This document shows positions 25,387-57,620 of a DNA stretch of 64,000 bases, in pieces. This DNA comes from Pomacea canaliculata (lineage: Eukaryota > Mollusca > Gastropoda > Architaenioglossa > Ampullariidae): contig NC_037599.1 in the NCBI RefSeq assembly GCF_003073045.1, positions 22,448,555 through 22,512,554 on the forward strand. Reading direction: 5' to 3'. The notes below the pieces were generated by a model that was not told the DNA's origin, ran no database searches, and was given only the letters and a program-made list of their open reading frames with translations. The position numbers and the translations under genes are program-made. How positions within the stretch are numbered: the stretch's first letter is position 1; every line of letters begins with the position of its first letter.

Positions 25387-28011
25387 TCACTGTTCTGTCT
25401 TTCTGGACTTGACTGGAGTCCACTTGCCTGCCACTGTCGTCCTGTGCAGCACTCTCAACCCCACCTCCTCCACAGACAGCTGGGTTTCGGGTGTGGCCTC
25501 ATGGCCGACGGCTAAGTTATCTGAGATGATGAAATCTCCAACTTCCCACTATATGGAATGGAAAAGAACCTTTTGCATCAATAAATGTATAGAAATCCTA
25601 CACTTTTGGCATGTATGAATGTTTCCTGTACATATGGACCTACATATTATGCTTGCATTGAAATACATGCAAAGGTACACACACCTCTCATGACCCCATT
25701 TACCTAAACGTCTCTCTCTCATTCTCTTATTTTGTTCTGCTAATAGTAACTTTGAAAACACTTCTGAAAGTATGTGGCAACTCATCCATTTTACCTTGTG
25801 TGAATAAACAAGTCGATTATTGTTTTTAGTGATTTCCTCAAACATTTCCTGCAAGATTTGATGTGTTTCTCTCCTGTTCGTTCGCTTTGCGTTCTTTGTG
25901 TCATAGTCCAATATAAAACACCCGGTCATGCCAAGATGGAAACAAAGGGTCTGAAAAAGAAAAAAAAAGACCCTCTGATTGATATAAAGTTATCTGTTCA
26001 GTACTAAGATTTTGTTTACTACCATCTTAAGATCACCAGGACTTTATAGATGATTAAAGGTAAAAACAGAACTGCAATTTATTCAAACTTAAGCTTTGTT
26101 ACCGGGTCTCCAGTGACAGGATGTTGGTAAATCAAAGGATGGATCACTTGATAGTGATGATCGGTACGCCACAACCTTTCCCATTGAACACGTGTCTCTT
26201 CTGACAAACTTTCCACTAGCTCCTTCAAGGGGACAAATGCTGGAAACAATAATGAAAATGATAGTACTTGCTGCTGTGTTAATATCTTAAATAATTTACA
26301 TAACTCTATGTCCAAAATATATATGATTAAAATTTCCACACCATTTAGAAAAAGTCTAGTAACTGTAATAGCAGACAGAATGTAGTATAAGTGTAGATAG
26401 CCAAGTGGTTAGAACACTGGCAACCGAACTCATGGCTGTACCGATTTGGCATAGCAAACCTCCACCAGTTGACCCAGCTATCAGTAACTGGGTACCGGAA
26501 TCCAGAGAGGGTAGGGGACAGTAAGGGAAGATCAAGAGATGGGCACCACCTTAAGAAATTAAAATTGGCCACATAAAAAGTGTGATCTCTAACACCTTTG
26601 CCACCAAATGACCAAAAGGTTAGAGGATGCCTTCACCTTTAACTGACTTGCATTTAGCACTAGGATCTACAGAATCCATGGATATTACTAGTTACTTTAA
26701 CACTCAGTGTATTCAAATTTCTTTTTTCCACAACCAAAGTTCTTGTCTCATTTTACAGAAATATAAATTGAAAGGTGATGCGATGTCAATTGTTAGTCTA
26801 TTTTTGTTGATAATTAAGCTTCAGGTGCTCTAGCTCGGTGGTTCTCAAAGTATTTCGGACTGCGGACAACTTTACTTAAGTAAAAAATATGGCGGACCAT
26901 CAAGGCCTAAAAATCACTCTGTACTATGAATTTCAAATTTAAATTGCTGCATTTGTTTCATTACAATTCAAAACTAAATGTCCTTTTGTGACAGTAGTAT
27001 AGTAATAAGTTGACATAAAACTATGGTGCAAAACTGGTAGGCGCATAGTGTAGCAAGTGATGGGACAGCCCACAGCCCACCTGTAGGTGGGCAACCTGTA
27101 GTAGGGCCCACTACTACCCCACTAGTTTTGCAGGCTGGGTATGTACCTTGTTCTTTGTAATTAAAATGTTAATGCGAGGAATGCATCACTTTAAACATCA
27201 CTTTGCTAACATATGACGACTGTCAGCTGCTGACCACCTGACTTATGCCCGTGGACCACACTTTGAGAACCACTGCTCTAGCTCACACAATTTAATAACA
27301 CATAATAATTCATGTTCTATATAATCACTAATTTAACATGTAGGTGTTTCTCTCTCTATATATAGATATAAATACATTATCAACCGAGAAGGGTTGGGAG
27401 AGTTGAGTAAGGAAAGAGTAGCACAAAGAAGAATCTGTTAGAGGAGAAGTGAAAATAACCATGATATCCTGCTGTTGATGATCATTGGTGTTCATAATAG
27501 TGTTGAAAATATATATTTTCAAAAACAAAATCTTGCAATCCTGTCTTGTTTTTACTAGTCTGCCACTAATATGAATATACAGTGCCAGTCCAAGATATCT
27601 AAGTGAGTTTCAGAGATAATTTTTTATTTATTTATTTTTACCTGTATTCCCATTCTTTGGAACTGCAACCATATGATAGAGAGCATAGCTAAAAGGTTTC
27701 TCCATGAAGCTTCCATCAATATGCCATCCTGTGCGACCTACGTTCGTACAGCCTTCTTCTTCGCAATTTGACACTCGGAAAACATCTGGGTGTGGCGATT
27801 TGGGGTGCTTGTAGAACGTCGACTCCAGCTCCCCAAACCACCGTGAAATTTCCACATGCCTGTCTGCACTAATGATACCTTGATTTTTGAAGATAAGTAG
27901 TCGGTGTTTGTGAACATCCTTCTTTATCTGCTGAATGATTTGATCAGGAACATGCTGCTTTAAATCTATCCCTCGGACTTCGACTCCAATTGGTGCTGGA
28001 TTGTATTGCAT
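25387..28011 (-). CDS. TauD/TfdA-family Fe(II)/2-oxoglutarate dioxygenase
   Basis: Four exons: 27642-28011, 26103-26239, 25795-25950, 25387-25548. Phases agree throughout and give 274 aa, close to the usual 280 for TauD-like enzymes. The start is taken at MQYNPAPIGVEVRGIDLK: the frame is open for another 38 codons upstream but has no earlier ATG before a stop. Metal ligands are visible as HxD in GWHIDGSF and a distal His in DNLAVGHEA. The 2-oxoglutarate-binding Arg is probably that in RVLHRTT. Such enzymes hydroxylate small substrates (taurine, chlorophenoxyacids, sulfonates), coupling oxidation to 2-oxoglutarate decarboxylation. The substrate here is unknown. No transmembrane segment or signal peptide is seen. 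A hAT MITE and a SINE lie in intron 1. The gene converges with NEK8. Confidence 0.92.
26396..26630 (+). mobile_element. tRNA-derived SINE, copy 2
   Basis: It starts GATAGCCAAGTGGTTAGAA, a good box A match, and ends ATGACCAAAAGGTTAGAGGA. It shares head, body and tail with the copy at 12646-12884. It is in intron 1 of the dioxygenase gene, in antisense orientation to it. Confidence 0.75.
26828..27283. mobile_element. hAT-type MITE, 440 bp, with 8-bp TSD
   Basis: The element at 26836-27275 begins CGGTGGTTCTCAAAG and ends CTTTGAGAACCACTG, inverted repeats with one mismatch. CTCTAGCT directly flanks it on both sides (26828-26835, 27276-27283), an 8-bp duplication typical of hAT elements. It has no coding capacity. 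It is in the dioxygenase intron 1. Confidence 0.9.
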
Positions 28012-28707
28012 ACTGCCTGCAAACTGCCAACTTCTGCTTGAAAGACTAAATTTCCGACAGGGGGGACTATTATGCTGTTTGGACTGGTGTTTTGAAAACT
28101 TTGATATGTAAATATCACAGGCCAAAAATGTTTTGTTTTAAAAGTGAAGTTCAATGCATTAATGGCGCGCAAGCATTTCGTAAACAACATGAAAAGCGTA
28201 TTTAAATTAGATCATAAAACAGTGTGAAGCATAAGCCGCAACTCGAGGTAGACAAGCCGAAATTTTCTTATACGTTGTTTTCTAGATCCGAAGACAAATG
28301 AGTGATGCATTTATACGTTTGTTTAAAATAATTATCTGAAATATTCTTACATTGCACCAGTGTTCATATTTCAAAAGTACTGATGCTTGAAATTTTCAAA
28401 CAACTTTTGCAAACAGGAATTAAACGTTACGACTAGAGCAGACAGCATTTGTTTCAGACAATTCAGGAACGTGATTTTATGAGAATAAATTATTATAAAA
28501 ATCGAATCAGTTGCGAAAATGTGAAGCCTTTAATTGTCACTGCCGAAATAAAATTAGGAAAAACGACAATTAAAAAAATATAATCTAACTTTCCTGTAGC
28601 TGTCCGACAATGTTCAAGTGTACTGAACATATCAGTGTGCTTTGCTGCTTGCGCATTTGAGTTCCGATCGATACGTTATTATTGTTTTGTTTTTTATAGA
28701 CGCGTGA

Positions 28708-30400: not shown

Positions 30401-31448
30401 TCATACTTGAAGCTGTTCCTCTCCCATCAGTTCGTCTCTCACCTCGGTGAGCGCGAGGCCCAACAGGTTTTTCCCTTGCCATGTCGACCGGTCCCATGCA
30501 AGTGGGTTGTCCTCCGACAAACCTATTCCCCAGATCGTGTCGACTGGACTGGCCTCAACCAAAGTCCGTGGGTGAGTGGCGAACAAAATGGACTTCAGGG
30601 AGTCATTTTGTGAGAACTGCAAAAGACAGCCGTGTAGTGTTCGTCCTGATCTTAGATAACATGCAGTTAATTCAATGATGCTCATAATGGCGATAGAGCA
30701 GACAGAAGGATGACAAGAAAACGGAATTAGAACGAGATGATGAAAGCAGGATTTCTTTTTTGTGCCTTTTTCAGCCTGGGGTAGGGAATTATTTTCTAAA
30801 CTGAAAGCACAGATCGACGAGAGGAAGACAGAAAAGGAGGAATGAAGAAGGTAAAGACAATATCTTTTATTAGACCCCCAGAATTAATTTTGTTTTAACG
30901 CTTATTTTTTCAGTGATCACCTTTGCTCTGTTTCCTCTTTTCACGATGTTGAAACACTCCCCTGTCCAAGCTGCTTCGTCGAAGTTCTTCACTTTTCGCC
31001 CCAAAGATTTTTGAGCTCTTGGATCCTTGCTTGTCAGTATTTTCTCGGCTACAGCGTGGTCCCCGAATAAAACTGAAAAAGAGCAGACGAATTTACATCA
31101 TATGGTTAGTAATTTTTAGTTCATACTACTTTCTCATAATATATTCAATTAACAATTACAACTTGCTGGACATACATGTATGCAAGTCCTGGCGTAATAA
31201 AGTGAAGAACTTCAAGTATCGTTCATTACATTCTCCGGTCATAAATTTATCAGTCACCTACCTGCTTTTTGATGCATCATGAACTGCTCTGCACAGTTAT
31301 ACAACTGCCCGTCCACTGAAAATTTTGCTTTGTGCCACTGACTGAAAGGAGAATCTTTGCGCCAGAAGAACTCGAAGTTTTTCTTCGCTTGCTCTAGACT
31401 CGAACCTTTACTCTCCGCAGGGCAAGACGCGTCGTCTGCTTGGGCCAT
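30401..31448 (-). CDS. NADAR-domain protein, gene A (YbiA-like N-glycosidase family), intact
   Basis: Three exons: 31262-31448, 30921-31072, 30401-30616; introns in phase 1 and phase 0. The product is 184 aa, the usual size for a single-domain NADAR protein. After a short polar leader (MAQADDASCPAESKG) the fold follows: FFWRKDSPFSQW, the conserved YNCAEQFMMHQKA, DPRAQKSLGRKVKNFD and, near the end, WGIGL with WQGKNLLGLALTEVRDEL. Bacterial relatives cleave N-glycosidic bonds in riboflavin-pathway intermediates, and others remove ADP-ribose from guanine in nucleic acid. Which reaction, if either, this animal protein carries out is unknown. No signal peptide is seen, so it is probably soluble. 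It is divergently paired with gene B, whose ATG is 772 bp away. Confidence 0.94.
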
Positions 31449-32220
31449 ACTAAAAATTCGGATCGGAATCCAGACGGTCTCCTTCCGCCGGCGGGAGGTA
31501 TGCAAGATAATGTTTGGAATCTAAAATTAATTAAAGAATTATAGAGTATAATCAAAGACTAGCCTACCCTAGGAACCTTGGATCACTGCTTCAATGTGGT
31601 TCTGACATAAACTAAAATCTGTAAAGCACGAAATGGACTCGACCAACATTTCGCAACAGCAGGCAATGGAGTGACACAAGGCGCAGTAATCGCTGTCACA
31701 GCTCGAACGACCTTCTCTGCCAACTAATCAATCTACTTAAAAAAAAAAAAAAAAGGTATTCAGAAAAAATTTCATTTGAGAAAGCACGTAAATTTATTAT
31801 GTGCTGACCAGCAGGAATGGGTGAGTGATTTAATTAAAATGCAAACTACGAAGAGAGGGAAACCCCAATTCTAAAAATAGTAACTGAGACTATACATATA
31901 TCTATAAATAGCAACTGTCGAACTTGCTCATAATTCTGTTATCTCATTTGTAGTGTTGTGTTAGCTGTGTAGAGCAGGTAGGGTATGTTTGAATTAAGAA
32001 AGCATGTGTATTTATCCGTCTTTCTGAAAGAAGATAATATTAACTGGCCGATATGCTCTTTAGTCTGAGAGTGACCATATATATAATTATATACGTGTAC
32101 GTGTGTGTATTAAAGATACGATGGAGTGTCTGGAGGGTGGTGAAATAACATACATGCAACGATTATAATCTAGTGACTCAACGGTTAAGAAACATTTTTG
32201 GTATACAACAGCATGTGAAG
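31449..32220. promoter_or_regulatory. Divergent intergenic region between the two NADAR genes
   Basis: 772 bp separate the two ATG codons. The interval should hold both promoters and 5' UTRs. I see an A-tract at about 31739-31754 and no clear TATA box or CpG cluster. Confidence 0.5.
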
Positions 32221-32280
32221 ATGGCATCCCGTAATGAGAAATTGCAGTCTTCTAACCAGAAAGTAATTAAAGGCAAACAG
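32221..32280 (+). CDS. NADAR gene B, 5' piece of the split first coding exon
   Basis: ATG at 32221 has a strong context (A at -3, G at +4) and opens exactly 20 codons (MASRNEKLQSSNQK, then VIKGKQ) that run up to the E1 insertion. The last eight bases (GCAAACAG) are repeated at 40610-40617. There the same frame resumes as GETSQDSQAQEEK and enters the NADAR domain, so the two pieces were one exon before the insertion. In the unspliced sequence, reading on into E1 meets a TAG after four more codons (32293-32295). Confidence 0.85.
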
Positions 32281-32380
32281 CAGAAGCGGCGTTAGGACTA
32301 CGCGGGGCCTGGGGCCGACCATCCGCGCGGGGCCGGGGTAATGGAGTACGTGTATCTATATATTGATATGATGCCGGAAG

Positions 32381-32556
32381 CAGGGCCGTGCTTAGGGGCA
32401 GGCGGACGAGGCATCTGCCTAGGGCCCCGCGCTTCAAGGGGCCCCGCGCTTTTGATTGATATGTGACTTTAGATCCCAACTAAAACCGTGTGATCGTGGC
32501 GTGAGGGCCCCGCACATGCCTTTGCCTCGGCCCGCGGGGGCTAAGAAACTGCCCTG
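32381..32556 (+). mobile_element. Left MITE of E2, 176 bp
   Basis: It starts CAGGGCCGTGCTTAG and ends CTAAGAAACTGCCCTG, which are inverted repeats. It is nearly identical to 40125-40395 at both ends. It lacks an AT-rich middle segment of about 100 bp found in that copy and has a short GGGGCCCCGCGCTT duplication instead. Confidence 0.85.
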
Positions 32557-33941
32557 GGACAAGGTGTGCAGCTCACACAAACTATTCCCATGTTGATAGA
32601 CACAGCTTGAGGGGATCTCACCAGCTTCCGAAATACACACTTGATGGTCCTGTCTACGGTTGGAGGATTCCCAAGTTTAAAAACCATTTGAACAGCCCTG
32701 AAAAAACTGTTGTAGAAGCTCATTTTCAGCTTCATCTCCATGTTCGGGTGAGATGGTCGAGGAACTCGGGAAAATGTGCTTCTGGGGAAGAGATGGAGAT
32801 GAGAAATGATGTTACAAAACCAGATGCGTAGGTAGAAATAGTAGGTTGCCATGAGAACGCTGCGGTAGGTAGAAGTGGTATTCGAATATTAACGTCTCTG
32901 TGGTAGACCTGTAAGTCCAGATGTAACTGTGCTTTCAACATGATCATAGACTTACAAAATGGTGGAAGCAGCACACACACACACACAAACCCACTTATCT
33001 TTTTAGTCTTCTTTGTCCTCCTAGTGCCGCAACCATACCACCCCAGCGGATCCGGTTCTGGCCGAGGATCGATCTCCTCCTTGTCTGTCTCCGAACCCTG
33101 CGTTTCATCTTGGGTTTAAGTCCAGAACTTGTCTCGTTAAACTCGGTGTCAAATTGCAATAAAATCAAATTGTCAACCGTACACTGCAGTCTATGCAAAA
33201 ACTTATTAAATACATTTTTTACTAAAAACAAGGATATCGGCCGGCAGCTCTTCCTTGCGATGTAAGTGTTAGAAGCAGGACTGAAGTATCGTTGGAAGTC
33301 AGAGAAACATTGCAGTGTACTGCTGACGTCAAGCAATGTCTGTAAGACTAATAACAAACACGTTAATGCTTTGTACAAAGCCAGGATAGTGTGTTTTCAC
33401 GAGCAAAACCTTCGATGTCGCAGTTGAAGATGTGAAATATTTTCACGGGGTGAGTCCGTGCTGTGTCCTGGTGACCGTTAGCACGGACACCTCGTGTCGC
33501 GGCCTAGTGTCGCGTAGTCACTGGGTCAGTGAAACTTATTCTCTCCCTTGTGTCTTGCCGTCCACACAAAGTCCCTCGACATTATGGGATAGCAATTGTC
33601 ATGAACTGTCGAGGACCGGCCATCTTGTCACTTATTTCTTGTTGGTGTTCTTTGTAGGGTACTGTTGTCCGTTTTCGATGTCCTCCATTGACTGGGCAGG
33701 CAACTCTGACCACGCGTACAATGATGTCCGTCGTGCACTAGTCATCTTCGTTAACAGCAGCCTCGTTGTCGATGACGTCACCGGTTCTGGGGCGTGTGCG
33801 TCTCGGTTCAGCGGATTTGTTCATTGTTGTAAACGGCGAAGTTGACTTCTTCACGAAGTTTAGACACGTTAGTTGGTAACGGCTGTTAGCCTGGTGGCTA
33901 GAGACTGAGGTGGTGGGTGGTTGAATAGGTCTGAGGTGATC
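32557..33941. other. E2 cargo, left unique part
   Basis: 1.4 kb of non-repetitive DNA of unknown origin. A 127-codon frame on the - strand (32995-33378) ends with a very basic stretch (KMKRRVRRQTRRRS), and a 137-codon frame lies on the + strand (33432-33845). I recognise neither, and their lengths are not strong evidence of genes. A (CA)n tract lies at about 32970-32986. Confidence 0.4.
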
Positions 33942-36900
33942 TGAGTGAGTGAGTGAGTGACGTGTGTTGAGTGTGAGTGAGTGAGTGAGTGAGTGAGTGA
34001 GTGAGTTGAGGTGAGTGAGTGAGTGAGTGAGTGAGTGAGTGAGTGAGTGAGTGAGTGAGTGAAGTGAGTGAGTGAGTGAGTGAGTGATTGAGCTGAGTGA
34101 GTGAGTGAGGGTGAGTGAGTGAGTGGTGAGTGAGTGAGTGAGTGAGTGAGTGAGTGAGTGATGAGTGAGTATGAGTGAGTAGTGAGTGAAGTGAGTGAGT
34201 GAGTGAGTGAGTGAGTGAGTGAGTTGAGTGAGTGAGTGAGTGAGTGAGTGAGTGAGTGAGTGAGTGAGTGAGTGAGTGAGTGAGTGAGTGAGTGAGTGAG
34301 TGAGTGAGTGAGTGAGTGAGTGAGTGAGTGAGTGATGAGTGAGTGAGTGAGTGAGTGAGTGAGTGAGTGAGTGAGTGAGTGAGTGAGTGAGTGAGTGTGA
34401 GTGAGTGAGTGAGTGAGTGAGTGAGTGAGTGAGTGAGTGAGTGAGTGAGTGAGTGAGTGAGTGAGTGAGTGAGTGAGTGAGTGAGTGAGTGAGTGAGTGA
34501 GTGAGTGAGTGAGTGAGTGAGTGAGTGAGTGAGTGAGTGGAGTGAGTTGAGTGAGTAGTGAGTGAGTGAGTGAGTGAGTGAAGTGAGTGAGTGAGTGAGT
34601 GAGTGAGTGAGTGAGTGAGTGAGTGAGTGATGAGTGAGTGAGTGAGTGAGTGAGTGAGTGAGTGAGTGAGTGAGTGAGTGAGAGTGAGTGAGTGAGTGAG
34701 TGAGTGAGTGAGTGAGTGAGTGAGTGGAGTGAGTGAGTGAGTGAGTGAGTGAGTGAGTGAGTGAGTGAGTGAGTGAGTGAGTGAGTGAGTGAGTGAGTGA
34801 AGTGAGTGAGTGAGTGAGTGAGTGAGTGAGTGAGTGAGTGAGGGAGTGAGTGAGTGAGTGAGTGAGTGAGTGAGTGAGTGAGTGAGGGAGTGAGTGAGTG
34901 AGAGGAGTGAGTGAGTGAGTGAGTGAGGGAGTGAGTGAACGAGTGAGTGCTGAGTGAGTGAGTGAGTGAGTGAGTGAGTGAGTGAGTGAGTGAGTGAGTG
35001 AGTGAGTGAGTGAGTGAGTGAGTGAGTGAGTGAGTGAGGTGAGTGAGTGAAGTGAGTGAGTGAGTGAGTGAGTGAGGAGTGAGTGAGGGAGTGAGTGAGT
35101 GAGGGAGTGAGTGAGTGAAGTAGAGTGAGTGAGTGAGTGAAGTGGAGTGAGTGAGTGAGTGAGTGAGTTGAGGGAGGGAGGAGTGAGTGAGTGAGGGAAG
35201 TGAGTGAGTGAGGTGAGTGAGTGAGTGAGTGAGTGAGTGAGTGAGTGAGTGAGTGAGTGGTGAGTGAGGGAGTGAGTGAGTGAGTGAGTAGGGAGTGAGT
35301 GAGTGAGGGAGTGAGTGAGGTAGTGAGGGAGGGAGTGAGTGAGGGAGGGAGTGAGTCGAGTGAGTGAGTGAGTGAGTGAGAGGAGTGAGTGAGTGAGTGA
35401 GTGAGTGAGGGAGGGAGGAGTGAGTGAGGAGTGAGTGAGGGAGGGAGTGAGGGAGTGAGTGAGTGAGGAGTGAGTGAGTGAGTGAGTGAGTGAGGGAGTG
35501 AGTGAGGTGAGTGAGTGCTAGTGAGTGGAGTGAGTGAGCGTGAGTGAGTGAGTGAGGGAGTGAGGGAGTGAGTGAGTGAGTGAGGTGAGTTGAGTGGAGT
35601 GAGTGAGTGAGGAGTGAGTGAGCGGTGAGTGAGGTGAGTGAGTGAGGAGTGAGTAGTGAGTGAGTGAGTGAGTGAGTGAGTGAGTGAGTGAGTGAGTGAG
35701 TGAGTGAGGGAGTGGGAGTGAGAGTGAGTGAGTGAAGTGAGTGAGGGGAGTGAGTGAGTGAGAGTGAGTGAGGGAGGGAGTGCGTGAGTGAGTGAGTGAG
35801 TGAGTGAGAGGGAGTGAGTGAGTGAGTGAGGGGAGGTGAGTGAGTGAGTGAGGTGAGTGAGTGAGTGAGTGATGAGAGTGAGTGACGTGAAGTGAGTGAG
35901 TGAGTGAGTGAGTGAGTGAGTGAGTGAAGTGTGAGTGAAGTGAGTGAGGGAGTGATGAGTGAGTGAGTGAGTGAGTGAGTGAGGAAGTGAGTGAGTGAGT
36001 GAGTGAGTGAGTGAGTGAGTGAGTGACTGAGTGAGTGAGTGAGTGATGAGTGAGTGAGGGAGGGAGTGAGTGGTGAGGAGTGAGTGAGTGAGTGAGTGAG
36101 TGAGGGAGTGAAGTGAGTGAGTGAGGAGTGAGTGAGTGAGTGAGTGAGTGAGTGAGTGAGTGAGTGAGTGAGTGAGGGAGTGAGGGAGTGAGTGAGTGAG
36201 TGAGTGAGTGAGGGAGTGAGGGAGTGAGTGAGTGAGTGAGTGAGTGAGTGAGTGAGTGAGTGAGTGAGGAGTGAGTGAGTGAGTGAGTGAGTGAGTGAGT
36301 GAGTGAGTGAGTGAGTGAGGTGAGGGAGTGAGTGAGTGAGTGAGGGAGTGAGGGAGTGAGTGAGTGATGAGTGAGTGGGAGTGAGTGAGGTGAGTGAGTT
36401 GAGGAGTGAGTGAGTGAGTGAGTGAGGGAGTGAGTGAGTGAGTGAGTGAGTGAGTGAGTGAGGGAGTGAGTGAGTGAGTGAGTGAGGGATGAGTGAGTGA
36501 GTGAGTGAGTGAGTGAAGTGAGAGTGGTGAGTGAGTGAGGGAGTGAGTGAGTGAGTGAGTGAGTGAGGGGAGTGAGTGAGTGAGTGAGTGAGTGAGTGAG
36601 TGAGTGAGTGAGTGAGTGGATGTGAGAGGAGGGAGGGAGTGAGTGAGTGAGTGAGTGAGTGTGAGTGAGTGAGTGAGTGAGTGAGGTGAGAGTGAGTGTG
36701 AGTGAGTGAGTGAGTGAGTGAGTGAGTGAGTGAGTGAGTGAGGAAGTGAGTGAGGTGAGGGAGTGAGTGAGTGAGTGTAGTGAGGGAGTGAGGAAGTGAG
36801 TGAGTGAGTAGTGAGTGATGAGTGAGTGAGTGAGTGAGTGGAGTGAGTGAGGGATGAGTGTGAGTGATGGAGAGGAGTGATGGGAGTGAGGGAGTGAGGG

Positions 36901-39742
36901 TGAGTGAGTGAGTGGTGAGTGAGTGAGCGGGAGTGAGTGAGTGAGGAGTGACGAGTGAGTGAGTGAGTGAGTGAGGAGGAGTGAGCGAGTGAGAGTGAGT
37001 GAGTGAGTGAGTGAGTGAGTGAGTTTGAGTGAGTGTGAGGGAGTGAGGAGTGAGTGAGTGAGTGAGTGAGTGAGTGAGTGAGTGAGGTGAGTGAGGTGAG
37101 ATGTGATACGTGAGTGAGTGAGTGAGTGAGTGAGTGAGTGAGGAGAGAGGTGAGTGAGAGTGAGTGAGTGAGAGTGAGCTGAGTGAGTGAGGGAGTGAGC
37201 TGAGAGGAGTCGAGTGATGTGAGTGAGTGGGGAGTGAGTGAGTGAGTGAGTGAGTGAGTGAGTGAGTGTGAGGTGAGTGAGTGAGTGAGGAGTGAGTGAG
37301 TGAGTGAGGAGTGAGGGAGTGAGTGCGGCAGGTGAGTCTGGATGAGCTGGAGTTGAGGTGGGAGTGAGTGAGTGAGGAGGGAGTGAGTGGGAGGTCGAGT
37401 GGGGGAGTGAGTGGAGTGGGGAGTGAGTGAGGTGAGTGGAGGGATGAGTGAGTGTAGTGAGTTGAGTGAGAAGTGAGTGAGTGAGTGAGTGAGTGAGTGA
37501 GTGAGTGAGTGAGTGAGGGAGTTGAGTGAGTGAGTGAGTGAGTGAAGGGAGAGAGGGAGGAGTGAGTGAGAGTGAGTTGGTGGTGGGATGAGTGAGTGAG
37601 TGAGAGTGAGGGAGTGAGTGAGTGTGAGTGAAGTGAGTGAGTGAGTGAGTAGGGAGTGAAGTGAGTGGAGTGAGTGAGTGAGGTGAGTGAGTGAGGGAGT
37701 AGTGAGTGAGTGATGAGTGAGTGAGTGAGGGAGTGAGTGAGGAGTGAGGGAGGGAGGTGGTGAGTGAGGGAAGTGTGTGAGTGAGTGAGGAGTGAGTGAG
37801 TGAGTGAGTGAGTGAGGGAGGGAGGGAGGAGTGAGTGAGTGATGAGTGAGTAGTGAGTGGTGAGTGAGTGAGTGATGAGAGTGAGTGAGGCTGAGTGAGG
37901 TGAGTGAGGAGGGGAGTGAGTGAAGTGAGTGAGTGAGTGAGTAGTGAGTGAGTGATGAGTGAGTGGTGAGTGGAGTGAGGTGAGTGAGGAGTGAGTGAGT
38001 GAGTGAGGGATGAGTGAGTGGGAGTGAGTGAGTGTGAGTGAGTGAGTGAGTGAGTGAGTGAGTGAGAGAGTGAGTGGAGGGATGAGTGAGTAGTCGAGGG
38101 AGTGAGTGAGTGAGTGAGTGAGTGAGTGAGTGAGTGAGTGAGTGAGTGAGTGAGGGAGTGAGTGTGAGGTGAGGAGTGGAGGGACGTGTGAGTGGAGTGA
38201 GTGAGTGAGTGAGGTGGAGTGAGTGAGTGAGTGGTGAGTGAGTGAGTGAGTGAGTGAGTGAGTGAGGGACTGAGTGAGATGTGAGTGAGTTTAGTGAGTG
38301 AGTGAGTGAGCGACGTGAGGTGAGTGAGTGAGTGAGTGGAAGTGAGTGAGTGAGTGAGTGAGGGAGTGAGTGAGGAGTGAGTGAGCGGGTGGAGTGAGTG
38401 AGTGAGTGAGTGAGTGAGTGAGGTGAGCCTGAGGTTGAGTGAAGTGGGGGTGAGTGAGTGAGTGGAGTGAGTGAGTGAGTGTGAGGTGAGCTGAGTGAGG
38501 TTGGGGTGATCGTGAGTGAGTGAGTGAGTGAGTGGAGGGAGTGAGTGAGTGAGTGAGGGGTGAGGTGAGTGAGTGAGAGTGATGAGGTGATTGAGTGAGT
38601 GAGTGGGGTGGAGTGAGTGAGGGGGTGAAGGAGGGACGGAGGGAGCGGAGGAGTGAGTGTGAGTGAGTGAGTGAGTGGGTTGAGTGAGTGAGTGATGAGT
38701 GAGTGAGTGAGTGAGGTGAGTGAGTGAGTGATGTGAGGAGTTGAGTGAGTGGAGTGGACGTGGAAGTGAGATGTGGAGTGAGTGAGTGAGGTGAGTGAGT
38801 GTGAGTGAGTGAGTGAGTGACCGGGAGTGTTGAGTGAGGAGTGAGTGAGTGAGTGAGTGAGTGAGGTGAGTGAGTGAGAGTGAGGAGTGAGTGAGTGAGT
38901 GAGTGAGTGGAGTGAGGAGTGAGTGAGTGAGTGAGTGGTGAGTGAGTGAGTGGTGACAGTGATGTGAGTGAGTGGACGTGAGTGAGTGAGTGAGTGAGTG
39001 AGTTGAGTGAGTGAGTGAGGTGAGTGAGTGAGTGAGTGAGTGAGTGAGTGAGTGAGTTGTGGTGAGTGAGTGGGTCGAGTGAGTGAGGAGTGCAGTGAGT
39101 GAGTGAGGAGGTGCAGTGAGTGAGTGAGTGAGTGAGTGGTGAGTGAGTGGAGGGAGTGAGTGAGTGAGTGAGTGATGTGGAGTGAGTGTGAGTGTGAGTG
39201 GAGTGAGGTGAGTGGAGTGGGAGTGAGTGAGTGAGGGGGAGTGAGTGGGAGTGAGTGAGTGAGTGGAGTGAGTATGAGTGAGTGAGTGAGTGAGTGAGTG
39301 ACGTGAGTGAGTGAGTGAGTGGGACGAGTGAGTGAGTGAGTGAGTGAGTGAGTGAGTGAGTGAGTGAGTGAGTGAGTGAGTGAGTGAGTGAGTGAGTGAG
39401 TGAGTGAGTGAGTGAGTGAGTGAGTGAGTGATGAGTGAGAGGTTGAGTGAGTGAGTGAGTGAGTGAGTGAGTGGTGAGTGAGTGAGTGATGTGACGGTGA
39501 GAGGTGTGGTGTGAAGTGAGTGAGGTGAGTGAGTGAGTGGAGTGAGTGAGTGAGTGAGTGAGTCGAGTGAAGTGAGTGAGTGAGTGAGTGATGAAGTGGA
39601 GTGGGAGTGGAGTGGTTGATAGTGGTGAGCTTGAGTGAGTTGAGTGTGAGTGAGTGAGTGAGTAGTGAGTGAGTGAGTAGTGAGCCTAGTGAGTGAGTGA
39701 GTGAGTGAGTGAGTGAGTGAGTGATCCTTTTTTGAGTGAGTG
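33942..39742. repeat. 5.8-kb TGAG/CTCA tetranucleotide array
   Basis: An almost unbroken run of TGAG on the + strand. The purest stretches are at the left (about 34200-34540 and 34560-35040). Interruptions (GAGG, TGAGGAG, single-base gains and losses) grow more frequent to the right, especially after about 36500. The - strand reads CTCA and has no stop in any frame while the array is pure, which creates open frames of 2039 and 1413 codons made of Leu-Thr-His-Ser. These are artefacts of the repeat. The + strand repeats the perfect 5' splice-site hexamer GTGAGT throughout. Confidence 0.97.
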
Positions 39743-40124
39743 ATCCCAACGCCGAACATCTTCCTACGCCATTGTAGTGGTGAGGTCTTACTAACGCAAA
39801 TTGAGAAATCATGTTTTCATGGAACAAACTGACTACCGAGGGTTTGACAAAGATCACAGTTCACCAGGCGTAAAGTGAATCGTTTACTTGTAGTTTGGGT
39901 TACACACGTGCACGATGTCGTCTGTGGATGTGCTTTACAGAAGACATTGTCGTGCTGTGGTTCACAGAACACGTGACTATGCTCTACTCACCCTCACATA
40001 ACAAACGACCATACTCTACTTACCCTAACAGAATGCATCCTATTTGTCTTTACACGATTACTTTGTTATACATAGTTTTACTATTTACTTATATACACTT
40101 TTATATTTTATATTTAGTGACAAT
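39743..40124. other. E2 cargo, right unique part
   Basis: About 380 bp between the array and the right MITE. No gene is recognised. A sequence rich in ACTCTACTTACCC-type blocks lies near 39990-40030. Confidence 0.4.
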
Positions 40125-40395
40125 CAGGGCCGTGCATAGGGGCAGGCGGACGAGGCATCTGCCTAGGGCCCCGCGCTTTTGATTGATATGGTAACTAGGC
40201 ATATGAAAGTGTTACAAATAAATTAATCGTAGGCTTATGTTGTAATGTGTATGCAGCGTGCTGTCAATGATAAAAGACGAGATATCCCTGAGGAAAAAAG
40301 TGACTTTAGATCCCAACTAAAACCGTGTGATCGTGGCGTGAGGGCCCCGCACATGCCCTTTGCCTCGGGCCCCGCGGGGGCTAAGAACGGGCCTG
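40125..40395 (+). mobile_element. Right MITE of E2, 271 bp
   Basis: It starts CAGGGCCGTGCATAGG and ends CTAAGAACGGGCCTG. This is the same family and orientation as 32381-32556 but with a longer AT-rich middle. The shared stretch beginning GTGACTTTAGATCCCAACTA is identical in both copies. Confidence 0.87.
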
Positions 40396-40609
40396 GCCGG
40401 AAGTACTGATTTATATACAGTTAGATAGGCGAATTTGACTTTAAAGAAATCTAATTTAAAGAGCCCTTCTCAGCATTTTTCCATTTAACACAGAATATAT
40501 TTTAAGTTGACAAACTCATAAAGAAAGCCTCGGGGCTGAAGCGCGGGGCCCCTTCAAGAGCGGGGCCTGGGGCGGCCGCCCCATTTGCCACCCCCTAACG
40601 CCGCCGCTG

Positions 40610-42083
40610 GCAAACAGGGAGAAACTTCACAAGACAGTCAAGCGCAGGAAGAAAAGTTTGTCTTCTTCTATGGTAAGAACTCTCCCTTCAGCCAGCATTT
40701 TGCAGTGGATTTTGAAATTGATGGGATCACTTACAACTGTGCTGAACAGTACATGATGCATCAGAAAGCAGGTATGCTGTACTCGGGACTTCTATATTGT
40801 CGCGTGTCATGCCTAGAAGAAAGCATGACACGCGACATATATCATGGAAAATGGGAAAAGGGACAGTCTGAAACTATCTTAATTTTATTTTGAGTTTGTA
40901 AACATGTTTGAAATGTGCACGAGGATAAACGAATCTGCTGATTGTTTTTATGTTTAAAATAATTTTAAAAAGCATCCTCCTACTGCTCCTACCCCTCACC
41001 ACCCACCACCACCACTATCCCCACTTCAACGAATATTTTATTTTATTTATATAGTTTATCATTATGCTTATTAAATTGAGTATTGTATTGCTAGGATAGT
41101 TAGGCGGTGGCTGAACTAATTATATCTTAACTGAGCTTACTTTTCAAAGGAAACCTTGTTAAACATAGACGAGGATGTTGCAGTAATGTTCAGAGACAGA
41201 GAAATGGCCCAGAAAATCATGGGAACCAAGAATCCAGCGGAACAGAAGAGGTTCGGGCGCAAGGTGCGAAACTTTGACAAAGAGGTCTGGGCTGTAAAGG
41301 CTCCTGGGGTGGTCAAGCGAGCCAACAATGCCAAGGTCTGTGTACTTCTTCAGAAAAGCTTTACATTTCAGGTGTGACTTGGGATATATCCGCTACATCA
41401 TGTGTCATTATCGTCTTCCTCCACATCATCATCATCACATCATCATCAGAAGCAGCATGTCATTTTTTTCCTCAGCAACAGTGTACACGGACTTACATTT
41501 CTAATGTACATCCGTGGCAGCATATGCTTACTTTGTTTTTTTTCTTTTTTAGTTGTGGTCGTTATTTCCTGCTGAGCACAGTTCATGATTTTTGTGCTCC
41601 TGTCCCTAGCATATAATTTTGAAATCTTCTTGGGAAATGCGGGATGTCCCGAACGAAGCCATTCTCTCGTGATTCTCATTTTTTTTTTTTTTTGTTACTT
41701 ACTCTGTATTTCAGGGATTTTCATGTACTACTACTGATAATAATAAAGATGATGAAGTTAATTTTAAATGCAATGCTTGCAATATATAACTTCTGGGCTA
41801 TTGTTGATTTTTTTTCTAAACAGGAATGATTGCTCGTATTCTCTGTTGTCTGTTGCAGTTCTCTCAAAACAAACACCTTCTTCAGCAGCTGCTGAGCACT
41901 TGTCCCAACACTCTGGCTGAGGCGAGTCCACGTGACCGCTTGTGGGGCATCAGGCTGGAAGCATCGAACCCCAAGGCGAAGGACCGCAGGCAGTGGAGAG
42001 GCAAAAACCTGCTGGGCCACATCCTCACAGAAGTGAGGGAGGAACTAATGAAGGAAGAAGAGGAAGACAATGAGAAAACCTAA
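40610..42083 (+). CDS. NADAR gene B, main part (3' of the transposon insertion)
   Basis: The rest of exon 1 (40618-40771, preceded by the duplicated target at 40610-40617), then exons 41184-41335 and 41859-42083. Intron positions and phases (1 and 0) and the length of the middle exon (152 nt) equal those of gene A, so the two are paralogues. Motifs are FFYGKNSPFSQHF, YNCAEQYMMHQKA, FGRKVRNFDKEVW, WGIRL and WRGKNLLGHILTEVREEL, ending in an acidic tail (EEEEDNEKT). With the 20 codons at 32221-32280 it would be 196 aa. The domain itself is undamaged; only the leader is split. Unless the insertion is spliced out or a new start is used, gene B should not make its normal product. The function is as uncertain as for gene A. 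Confidence 0.88.
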
Positions 42084-56849: not shown

Positions 56850-57620
56850 GAAGGTGATGTTGGTGTCATCCACCTTGACATACTTCCGAGGACTGATGAA
56901 CGATGATGGATTTCTTCGCCTCAAGCGGAAGAGGGCGTCCGTTTTATCATCGTTCAGTTTAAGTTTGTTTTTCAATCTTTAGCTTCACTAAACAGGCTTC
57001 CGTGGTATTGATAGCAGTGTGGAGCATTGCAACTGTGTGTCATCAGCATATGATTGATGAGAAACCTAATGATATGCATGATGAAAGTGGTTTTGCCAAG
57101 TACTGAGCCTTGAGGGACCTCACAAGAAAGGGAAGCAGGGCGGGATGTTTGACAGTCTGGGTCCTATCAGTTAGGTAGGAGTTGAACCATGCTAGTGCGG
57201 GTCCAGAAATTCCGTAGAGGATGCGAAGTCTTTGAAGGAGCAGAGAGTGGTCGAACGTGGCAGACAGGTCAAGCAGACTTAAGACACAAGCATCACCACC
57301 GTCAGGCGCAGATAACTTGTCCGAGGTTACTCTGAAGAGAGTAGTTTCAGTACTGTGAAGTGGTTTGTATGCCGACTGAGCCTGATGGATGGGATGGTGG
57401 TCTTGTAAGTAATCCCAGAGCTGTGTCAAAACGACTTTCTCCAGTATATTACAGAGAGGAGGCAAGATTGAAAGTGGGAGAGTTGTTTACCACACTGATG
57501 TCCAATGGAGGCTTCTAACGAAAGGACCTCACCAGAGCGTTTTTAAAGAAAGATGGAGAAACATCTGTTGAAAAACAGACATGGAAAATATTTATGATAA
57601 CAAATAAAACATCAAAGCAT
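56850..57620 (-). mobile_element. LINE reverse transcriptase fragment, CR1/L2-like, decayed
   Basis: The - strand encodes LPPLCNILEKVVLTQLWDYL, then QSAYKPLHSTETTL, LLDLSATFDHSLLLQRL, YGISGPALAWFNSYLTDRTQ and, in a shifted frame, VPQGSVLG. These are the fingers and palm of a non-LTR reverse transcriptase of the CR1/L2 kind. The aspartate of the DLSATFD motif is still present; the YADD box region is scrambled by frame changes and stops. It is 5' and 3' truncated. Confidence 0.85.

Follow-up and report, generated by a model that had tools for sequence, protein, structure and literature searches.

The insertion of a transposon into a gene is a common kind of event. In maize, distant ends of Ac elements can move jointly with the DNA lying between them, with an 8-bp duplication flanking the whole (sections of PMC9910405), and exonic Ds1, a hAT element of the same plant, yields both splice donors and acceptors (work cited in sections of PMC5432752). 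Some introners take their splice sites from the target duplication or from the adjoining exon, and one introner family is described with an 8-bp duplication (sections of PMC9860276). For the snail Pomacea canaliculata, the genome paper describes an explosive recent spread of hAT-Charlie elements, with DNA transposons peaking at about 4% divergence (sections of PMC6129957). Here we describe a window of 64,000 nucleotides of the P. canaliculata genome (contig NC_037599.1, positions 22,448,555 to 22,512,554), in which a short hAT-like element, itself entered by a composite unit, has probably disrupted one of two paired NADAR genes. The event is a well-documented case of an ordinary kind, enriched by the composite inner unit and by empty-site evidence.

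The window contains two NADAR paralogues arranged head-to-head, gene A on the minus strand and gene B on the plus strand, built on a common three-exon plan. Gene A (30401..31448, exons 31448-31262, 31072-30921 and 30616-30401) is intact and encodes 184 amino acids (aa), identical to the deposited P. canaliculata protein C0Q70_17073. A spacer of 772 bp (31449..32220) separates the two start codons and may serve as a shared promoter region. Gene B opens with a leader of 20 codons from its ATG (32221..32280); the remainder of exon 1, which holds Glu63 and Lys70, lies in frame with the leader at 40618..40771, followed by exon 2 (41184..41335, 152 nt) and by exon 3 (41859..42083), which carries Arg154 and includes the stop codon. 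Exons 2 and 3 are identical to C0Q70_17074, also of P. canaliculata, the C0Q70 tags presumably being those of the assembly in the published genome paper. At a length of 124 aa, this deposited product begins MFRDREM at the ATG of exon 2, omitting exon 1. When the leader, 40618-40771 and exons 2 and 3 are rejoined, they encode 196 aa without an inner stop; both intron positions and phases equal those of gene A, and the two genes share an exon 2 length of 152 nt. The rejoined product scores 164.9 bits against the NADAR domain PF08719 and the gene A product 184.7 bits (curated cut-off 35.1), with sequence matches to 8bau and 2b3w. An initial annotation of this DNA had read the 20 codons ending at 32280 as continuing in the same frame at 40618, had reconstructed an ancestral gene B of three exons and 196 aa with the intron positions and phases of gene A, and had credited the leader ATG with a strong Kozak context; the rejoined translation and the exon comparison agree with the first two claims, and an A at −3 together with a G at +4 bears out the third.

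Between the leader and the remainder of exon 1 lies an insertion of 8,329 bp (32281..40609). Its outer ends, CAGAAGCGGCGTTAGG and CAGCGGCGGCGTTAGG, start with CAG, as is typical of hAT ends, and match as inverted repeats at 14 of 16 positions, while the 8-bp duplication GCAAACAG stands exactly repeated on the plus strand to its left (32273..32280) and right (40610..40617), where its last bases form a possible CAG splice acceptor. The inverted ends and exact duplication proposed at first sight are thus both present, and the description of the insert as a nested transposon also holds, refined to two insertions, the inner of them formed by a passenger enclosed between two copies of an element. 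Once this inner unit and one copy of its duplication are set aside, about 300 bp of outer element remain (32281-32380 plus 40404-40609). Its 8-bp duplication and short terminal inverted repeats would best fit the hAT superfamily, and no second copy was found within the 64-kb window. The whole window was scanned for exact 8-bp duplications flanking 16-bp inverted ends 80-15,000 bp apart, ends within a TGAG array described below being excluded, with 20 mononucleotide shuffles in 1-kb blocks as the control. The outer-element pair ranked second among the 19 window pairs with at least 11 matches; the 20 shuffles gave 160 such pairs, six with 13 matches and none with 14 or more. One further pair, 31279-40754 (13/16), merely reflects the coding similarity of the oppositely oriented genes A and B.

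The first 74 residues of the rejoined gene B protein were used as a query in a protein search, which returned eight proteins. In two of these, designated P0210 (87 aa) and P0211 (93 aa), the leader runs directly into the NADAR domain without the insert, reading ...KGKQ-GETSQ...; they are identical to the 71 residues of rejoined exon 1 at 70 and 69 positions, respectively, the leader being unchanged in P0210 and altered once in P0211. The empty site that the initial annotation had predicted, GGCAAACAGGGAGAAAC, is therefore matched at the protein level. Insert-free sequence exists, and the leader and the domain were once one exon. The remaining six matches differ in their leaders and are 47-73% identical. 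An origin of the leader in a different gene is rejected, as P0210 and P0211 carry it fused to the domain, and a chance open frame is ruled out by the agreement of element ends, duplication and empty site.

Both P0210 and P0211 continue into intron 1, so that they represent translated unspliced DNA, most likely genomic. The read-through of P0210 shares WKMGKGT with another frame of intron 1 in the window, which marks it as a close relative and lends weight to a reading compatible with the disruption: the insertion may be heterozygous or not fixed, the assembly having kept the occupied haplotype and discarded the empty one while the species retains a working gene B. The genome paper gives a heterozygosity of 1-2% and states that alternative contigs were filtered from the assembly (sections of PMC6129957). 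Other differences may equally mean another Pomacea species: P0210 and P0211 have Ala26 where the window has Asp26, P0210 shows length differences in the intron, and both proteins lack a palindrome present in the window. Balancing these points, we place a polymorphic insertion at slightly under an even chance. The terms “structural variant”, “insertion” and “hAT-Charlie” do not occur in the main text of a resequencing paper on 173 P. canaliculata genomes (PMC11417965). The palindrome itself (40798-40837, 40 bp, with TATAT on either side, in intron 1 of gene B) represents a second small insertion seen only in the window.

The inner unit spans 8,015 bp (32381-40395) and is flanked by its own exact 8-bp duplication, GCCGGAAG, at 32373..32380 and 40396..40403. 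At its left end lies a short-element copy of 176 bp (32381..32556) and at its right end a copy of 271 bp (40125..40395), both in plus orientation, whose two longest shared blocks are 96.6% and 98.1% identical. The duplication thus stands at the outermost ends of two like-oriented copies around other DNA and not at their inward ends: the right flank of the left copy, GGACAAGG, and the left flank of the right copy, GTGACAAT, differ from one another and from GCCGGAAG. Because inner ends that match at 13 of 16 positions are unremarkable by themselves, the case for this unit relies on the duplication, the common element sequence and the CAG...CTG termini. We infer that both copies were mobilized together, taking the intervening 7.6 kb along. 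A single short element, swollen by 7.6 kb through faulty gap repair or inter-copy recombination, would likewise have left one duplication around the whole inner unit, and the copies do differ, by 95 bp in length, one internal segment and a few substitutions. Against such swelling, each copy has both of its own ends, and the dissimilar inward flanks are as described; we regard this alternative as possible but distinctly the less likely account of the unit. A 60-base stretch in which the outer right end matches the inner left copy in inverted orientation at 76.7% identity suggests that the outer and inner elements may belong to related families.

The passenger between the two copies (32557..40124, 7.6 kb) is mostly (TGAG)n. 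For four open reading frames (ORFs) between 32541 and 33842, Pfam gave no match above the curated cut-off, the single match being TIG_plexin, below cut-off, and no transposase was found. The array proper extends over 5.8 kb on the plus strand (33942..39724) and is of uneven regularity: the proportion of perfect 8-base words, taken every 400 bases, is highest at 34,342 (0.86), lowest at 37,542 (0.34) and 0.39-0.54 thereafter. The published assembly was built from PacBio reads, with base errors fixed from Illumina data by Pilon (sections of PMC6129957), a correction that would be poor in such arrays, and the true length and purity of the array are therefore uncertain. The word GTGAGT, the core of the splice-donor consensus, occurs 868 times in the array vs 12 times on the rest of the plus strand, those of the array being read in the same sense as gene B.

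The predicted consequence for gene B follows from the reading frame. Unspliced read-through would extend the leader by QKRR before reaching a stop codon in frame, the earliest one, at 32293 within the left end of the element. The only in-frame ATGs in the exon 1 remainder are at 40753 and 40756, both past Glu63, so that a restart at the first of them would lose Glu63 and the start of the domain. In our alignment, Glu63 and Lys70 correspond by position to E88 and K95 of the E. coli C7 NADAR, both of which are required there for rescue from DarT1 (sections of PMC11543638). Judging from the sequence, the occupied haplotype most likely fails to produce an intact gene B protein, barring excision of the insert from the RNA; gene A is unaffected.

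The two paralogues appear to be an old pair. In a tree of 37 chosen proteins, Pomacea B groups with the B proteins of Batillaria, Babylonia, Nucella, Littorina and two others (support 99/94), and Pomacea A falls in an open fork together with other A proteins. The A and B tags are adjacent in Nucella (ACOMHN_036432, 036433) as they are in Pomacea, and within each of Babylonia, Littorina and Nucella the two genes are assigned to equally long contigs, which suggests that their neighbourhood is conserved. Root-to-tip sums for the seven-member B clade give 0.52 for Pomacea B in a range from about 0.25 (Batillaria) to 0.73 (Littorina, P0006). Among 208 aligned proteins, the best matches of those listed with P0002 left out, every one has Glu63 and Lys70, as does gene B. 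Codon 154 of gene B, three residues past a conserved Trp, encodes Arg where 207 of the 208 have Gly and one has Lys, a substitution that could reflect relaxed constraint. A clear acceleration of gene B is not borne out: the clade holds a longer branch than its own, and its departures from conserved columns, given below, are unexceptional.

Taken as a whole, these observations are probably best explained by a hAT-like insertion followed by a composite insertion, together disrupting gene B. In this sequence of events, a short non-autonomous hAT-like element would have inserted into gene B at codons 18-20 and duplicated GCAAACAG; a composite unit would then have entered the outer element, duplicating GCCGGAAG, its two like-oriented short-element copies having used their outermost ends jointly and carried the 7.6 kb between them. 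The outer element would have come first, unless both arrived together. The natural disruption of one of two paired NADAR paralogues, as first claimed, accords with the split exon, the duplications and the insert-free public proteins, and the deposited gene B model, starting in exon 2, also favours it, as do the age of the paralogue pair and the recent hAT-Charlie burst described for the species. Several points weigh on the other side. The 19 window pairs with at least 11 matches exceed the shuffle mean of 8, and the inner ends, at 13/16, lie by themselves within chance, six such pairs having arisen in the 20 shuffles. P0210 and P0211 could stem from a different species, a different haplotype or an unannotated second copy. 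The exon 1 remainder, exon 2 and exon 3 are without stop or frameshift and show no sign of long decay, and gene B deviates at just 2 of 53 columns kept by at least 85% (V142A and G154R), a level equalled or exceeded by 53 of 119 others.

A working product could still arise if the insert were spliced out as a new intron, from a native donor at 32263 to the AG that ends the right copy of GCAAACAG. The candidate cryptic donor, AAA/GTAATT (32263..32268, plus strand), which matters to this reading only, lies within the leader, 18 bases upstream of the insertion site, and at the far side CAG closes the right duplication directly before GGAGAAAC. Donor and acceptor are both in phase 0, and their use would keep the frame and remove only the six residues VIKGKQ, giving an introner-like gene B of 190 aa whose remaining exons are intact. 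A CTAAC branch-like motif stands in the end of the element at 40595, at a distance from the acceptor that falls in the usual branch-point range. The splice scores, the donor being rated with general consensus weights, are less favourable. The donor has no G at either −1 or +5; it reaches 1.05 bits, vs 1.61-6.03 for the four introns of genes A and B, and of 3,394 GT sites that lie on the plus strand beyond the array, 6.8% do at least as well. The acceptor tract, with 7 of 15 pyrimidines, is equalled or exceeded by 61.5% of 1,676 YAG sites, although the exon 2 acceptor of gene B is poorer still (5/15). The deposited gene B model omits exon 1, and no such spliced protein occurs among the best 120 of 711 matches or the eight leader-search matches, an absence that says little because gene A of this species, too, shows only its deposited record. 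That the insert is spliced in this manner so that gene B still works seems improbable to us, and the 190-aa product belongs to that reading with the same low standing.

The “SOS splicing” of inverted-repeat transposons, a term absent from the ten papers listed of 822, would be a rival route of removal from RNA. When the element ends were joined by 60 A and folded as RNA, 61 cross pairs formed, a number reached by 9 of 100 mononucleotide shuffles, none of which matched the low energy. The birth of an 8.3-kb intron from a hAT element in an animal, combining in frame the CTAAC that the end of the element brings at a fixed distance, the AG of the duplication and an exonic donor, with gene B surviving minus six residues, is a proposition that we consider slightly more doubtful still. 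Both 8-bp duplications fit GCnnnnAG (n = 2); if intron birth were true and the family preferred AG-ending targets, its insertions, when oriented as here, would time and again be able to act as introns. The least probable reading is that P0210 and P0211 stem from a second intact gene B copy elsewhere in the genome, so that they would not show an empty site here: they retain intron 1 and are therefore not retrocopies, and a near-identical annotated copy should top the listed matches, yet among the best 120 of 711 proteins only P0002 and P0047 are named P. canaliculata and none besides P0002 exceeds 74% identity.

Elsewhere in the window, a further short element of 440 bp (26836-27275), hAT-Charlie-like, has ends CGGTGGTTCTCAAAGT and CAGTGGTTCTCAAAGT that match at 15 of 16 positions and an exact 8-bp duplication, CTCTAGCT. 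A TauD-domain ORF (27631-28137) lies a few hundred bases from it. A reverse-transcriptase-like ORF on the minus strand (57046-57486) scores 25.5 bits for RVT_1, below the cut-off of 29.6, and is a possible retroelement remnant. In 4-kb blocks, the CpG observed/expected ratio is 0.18-0.44 over 1-28000 and 0.62-0.93 over 28001-64000, a sharp change that may mark methylated vs unmethylated blocks.

The interruption of gene B provides a well-bounded case: in a deposited genome, a conserved snail NADAR gene is split, its head-to-head partner is intact and empty-site sequence is public. It offers a natural comparison for the roles of two NADAR paralogues in one animal, corrects the truncated gene B model, and may represent, in an animal, a hAT composite that carries other DNA. 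A literature search for Pomacea and NADAR gave three papers, none of them related by title.

Comparison with known systems places the locus among four of them. Like the NADAR ADP-ribosyl glycohydrolases (YbiA, the DarT1-associated NADAR and the P. nicotianae NADAR), the snail proteins have the PF08719 domain and the Glu and Lys positions; they differ as animal proteins whose activity is predicted from sequence, with the Gly at position 154 replaced by Arg in gene B. With hAT-type miniature inverted-repeat transposable elements (MITEs) the insert shares an 8-bp duplication, short inverted CAG ends and the lack of a detected transposase in the four ORFs, but it has been enlarged to 8.3 kb by a nested unit. 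As in introners and maize Ds1, a splice site could derive from the target duplication or from the nearby exon; unlike them, the snail insert is one copy of 8.3 kb with a weak donor outside the element, and its splicing is conjectural. The inner unit resembles the hAT macrotransposons of maize Ac, in which separated ends and the intervening DNA are likewise bounded by an 8-bp duplication, although excision has been seen in maize and movement in the snail is read from one static copy.

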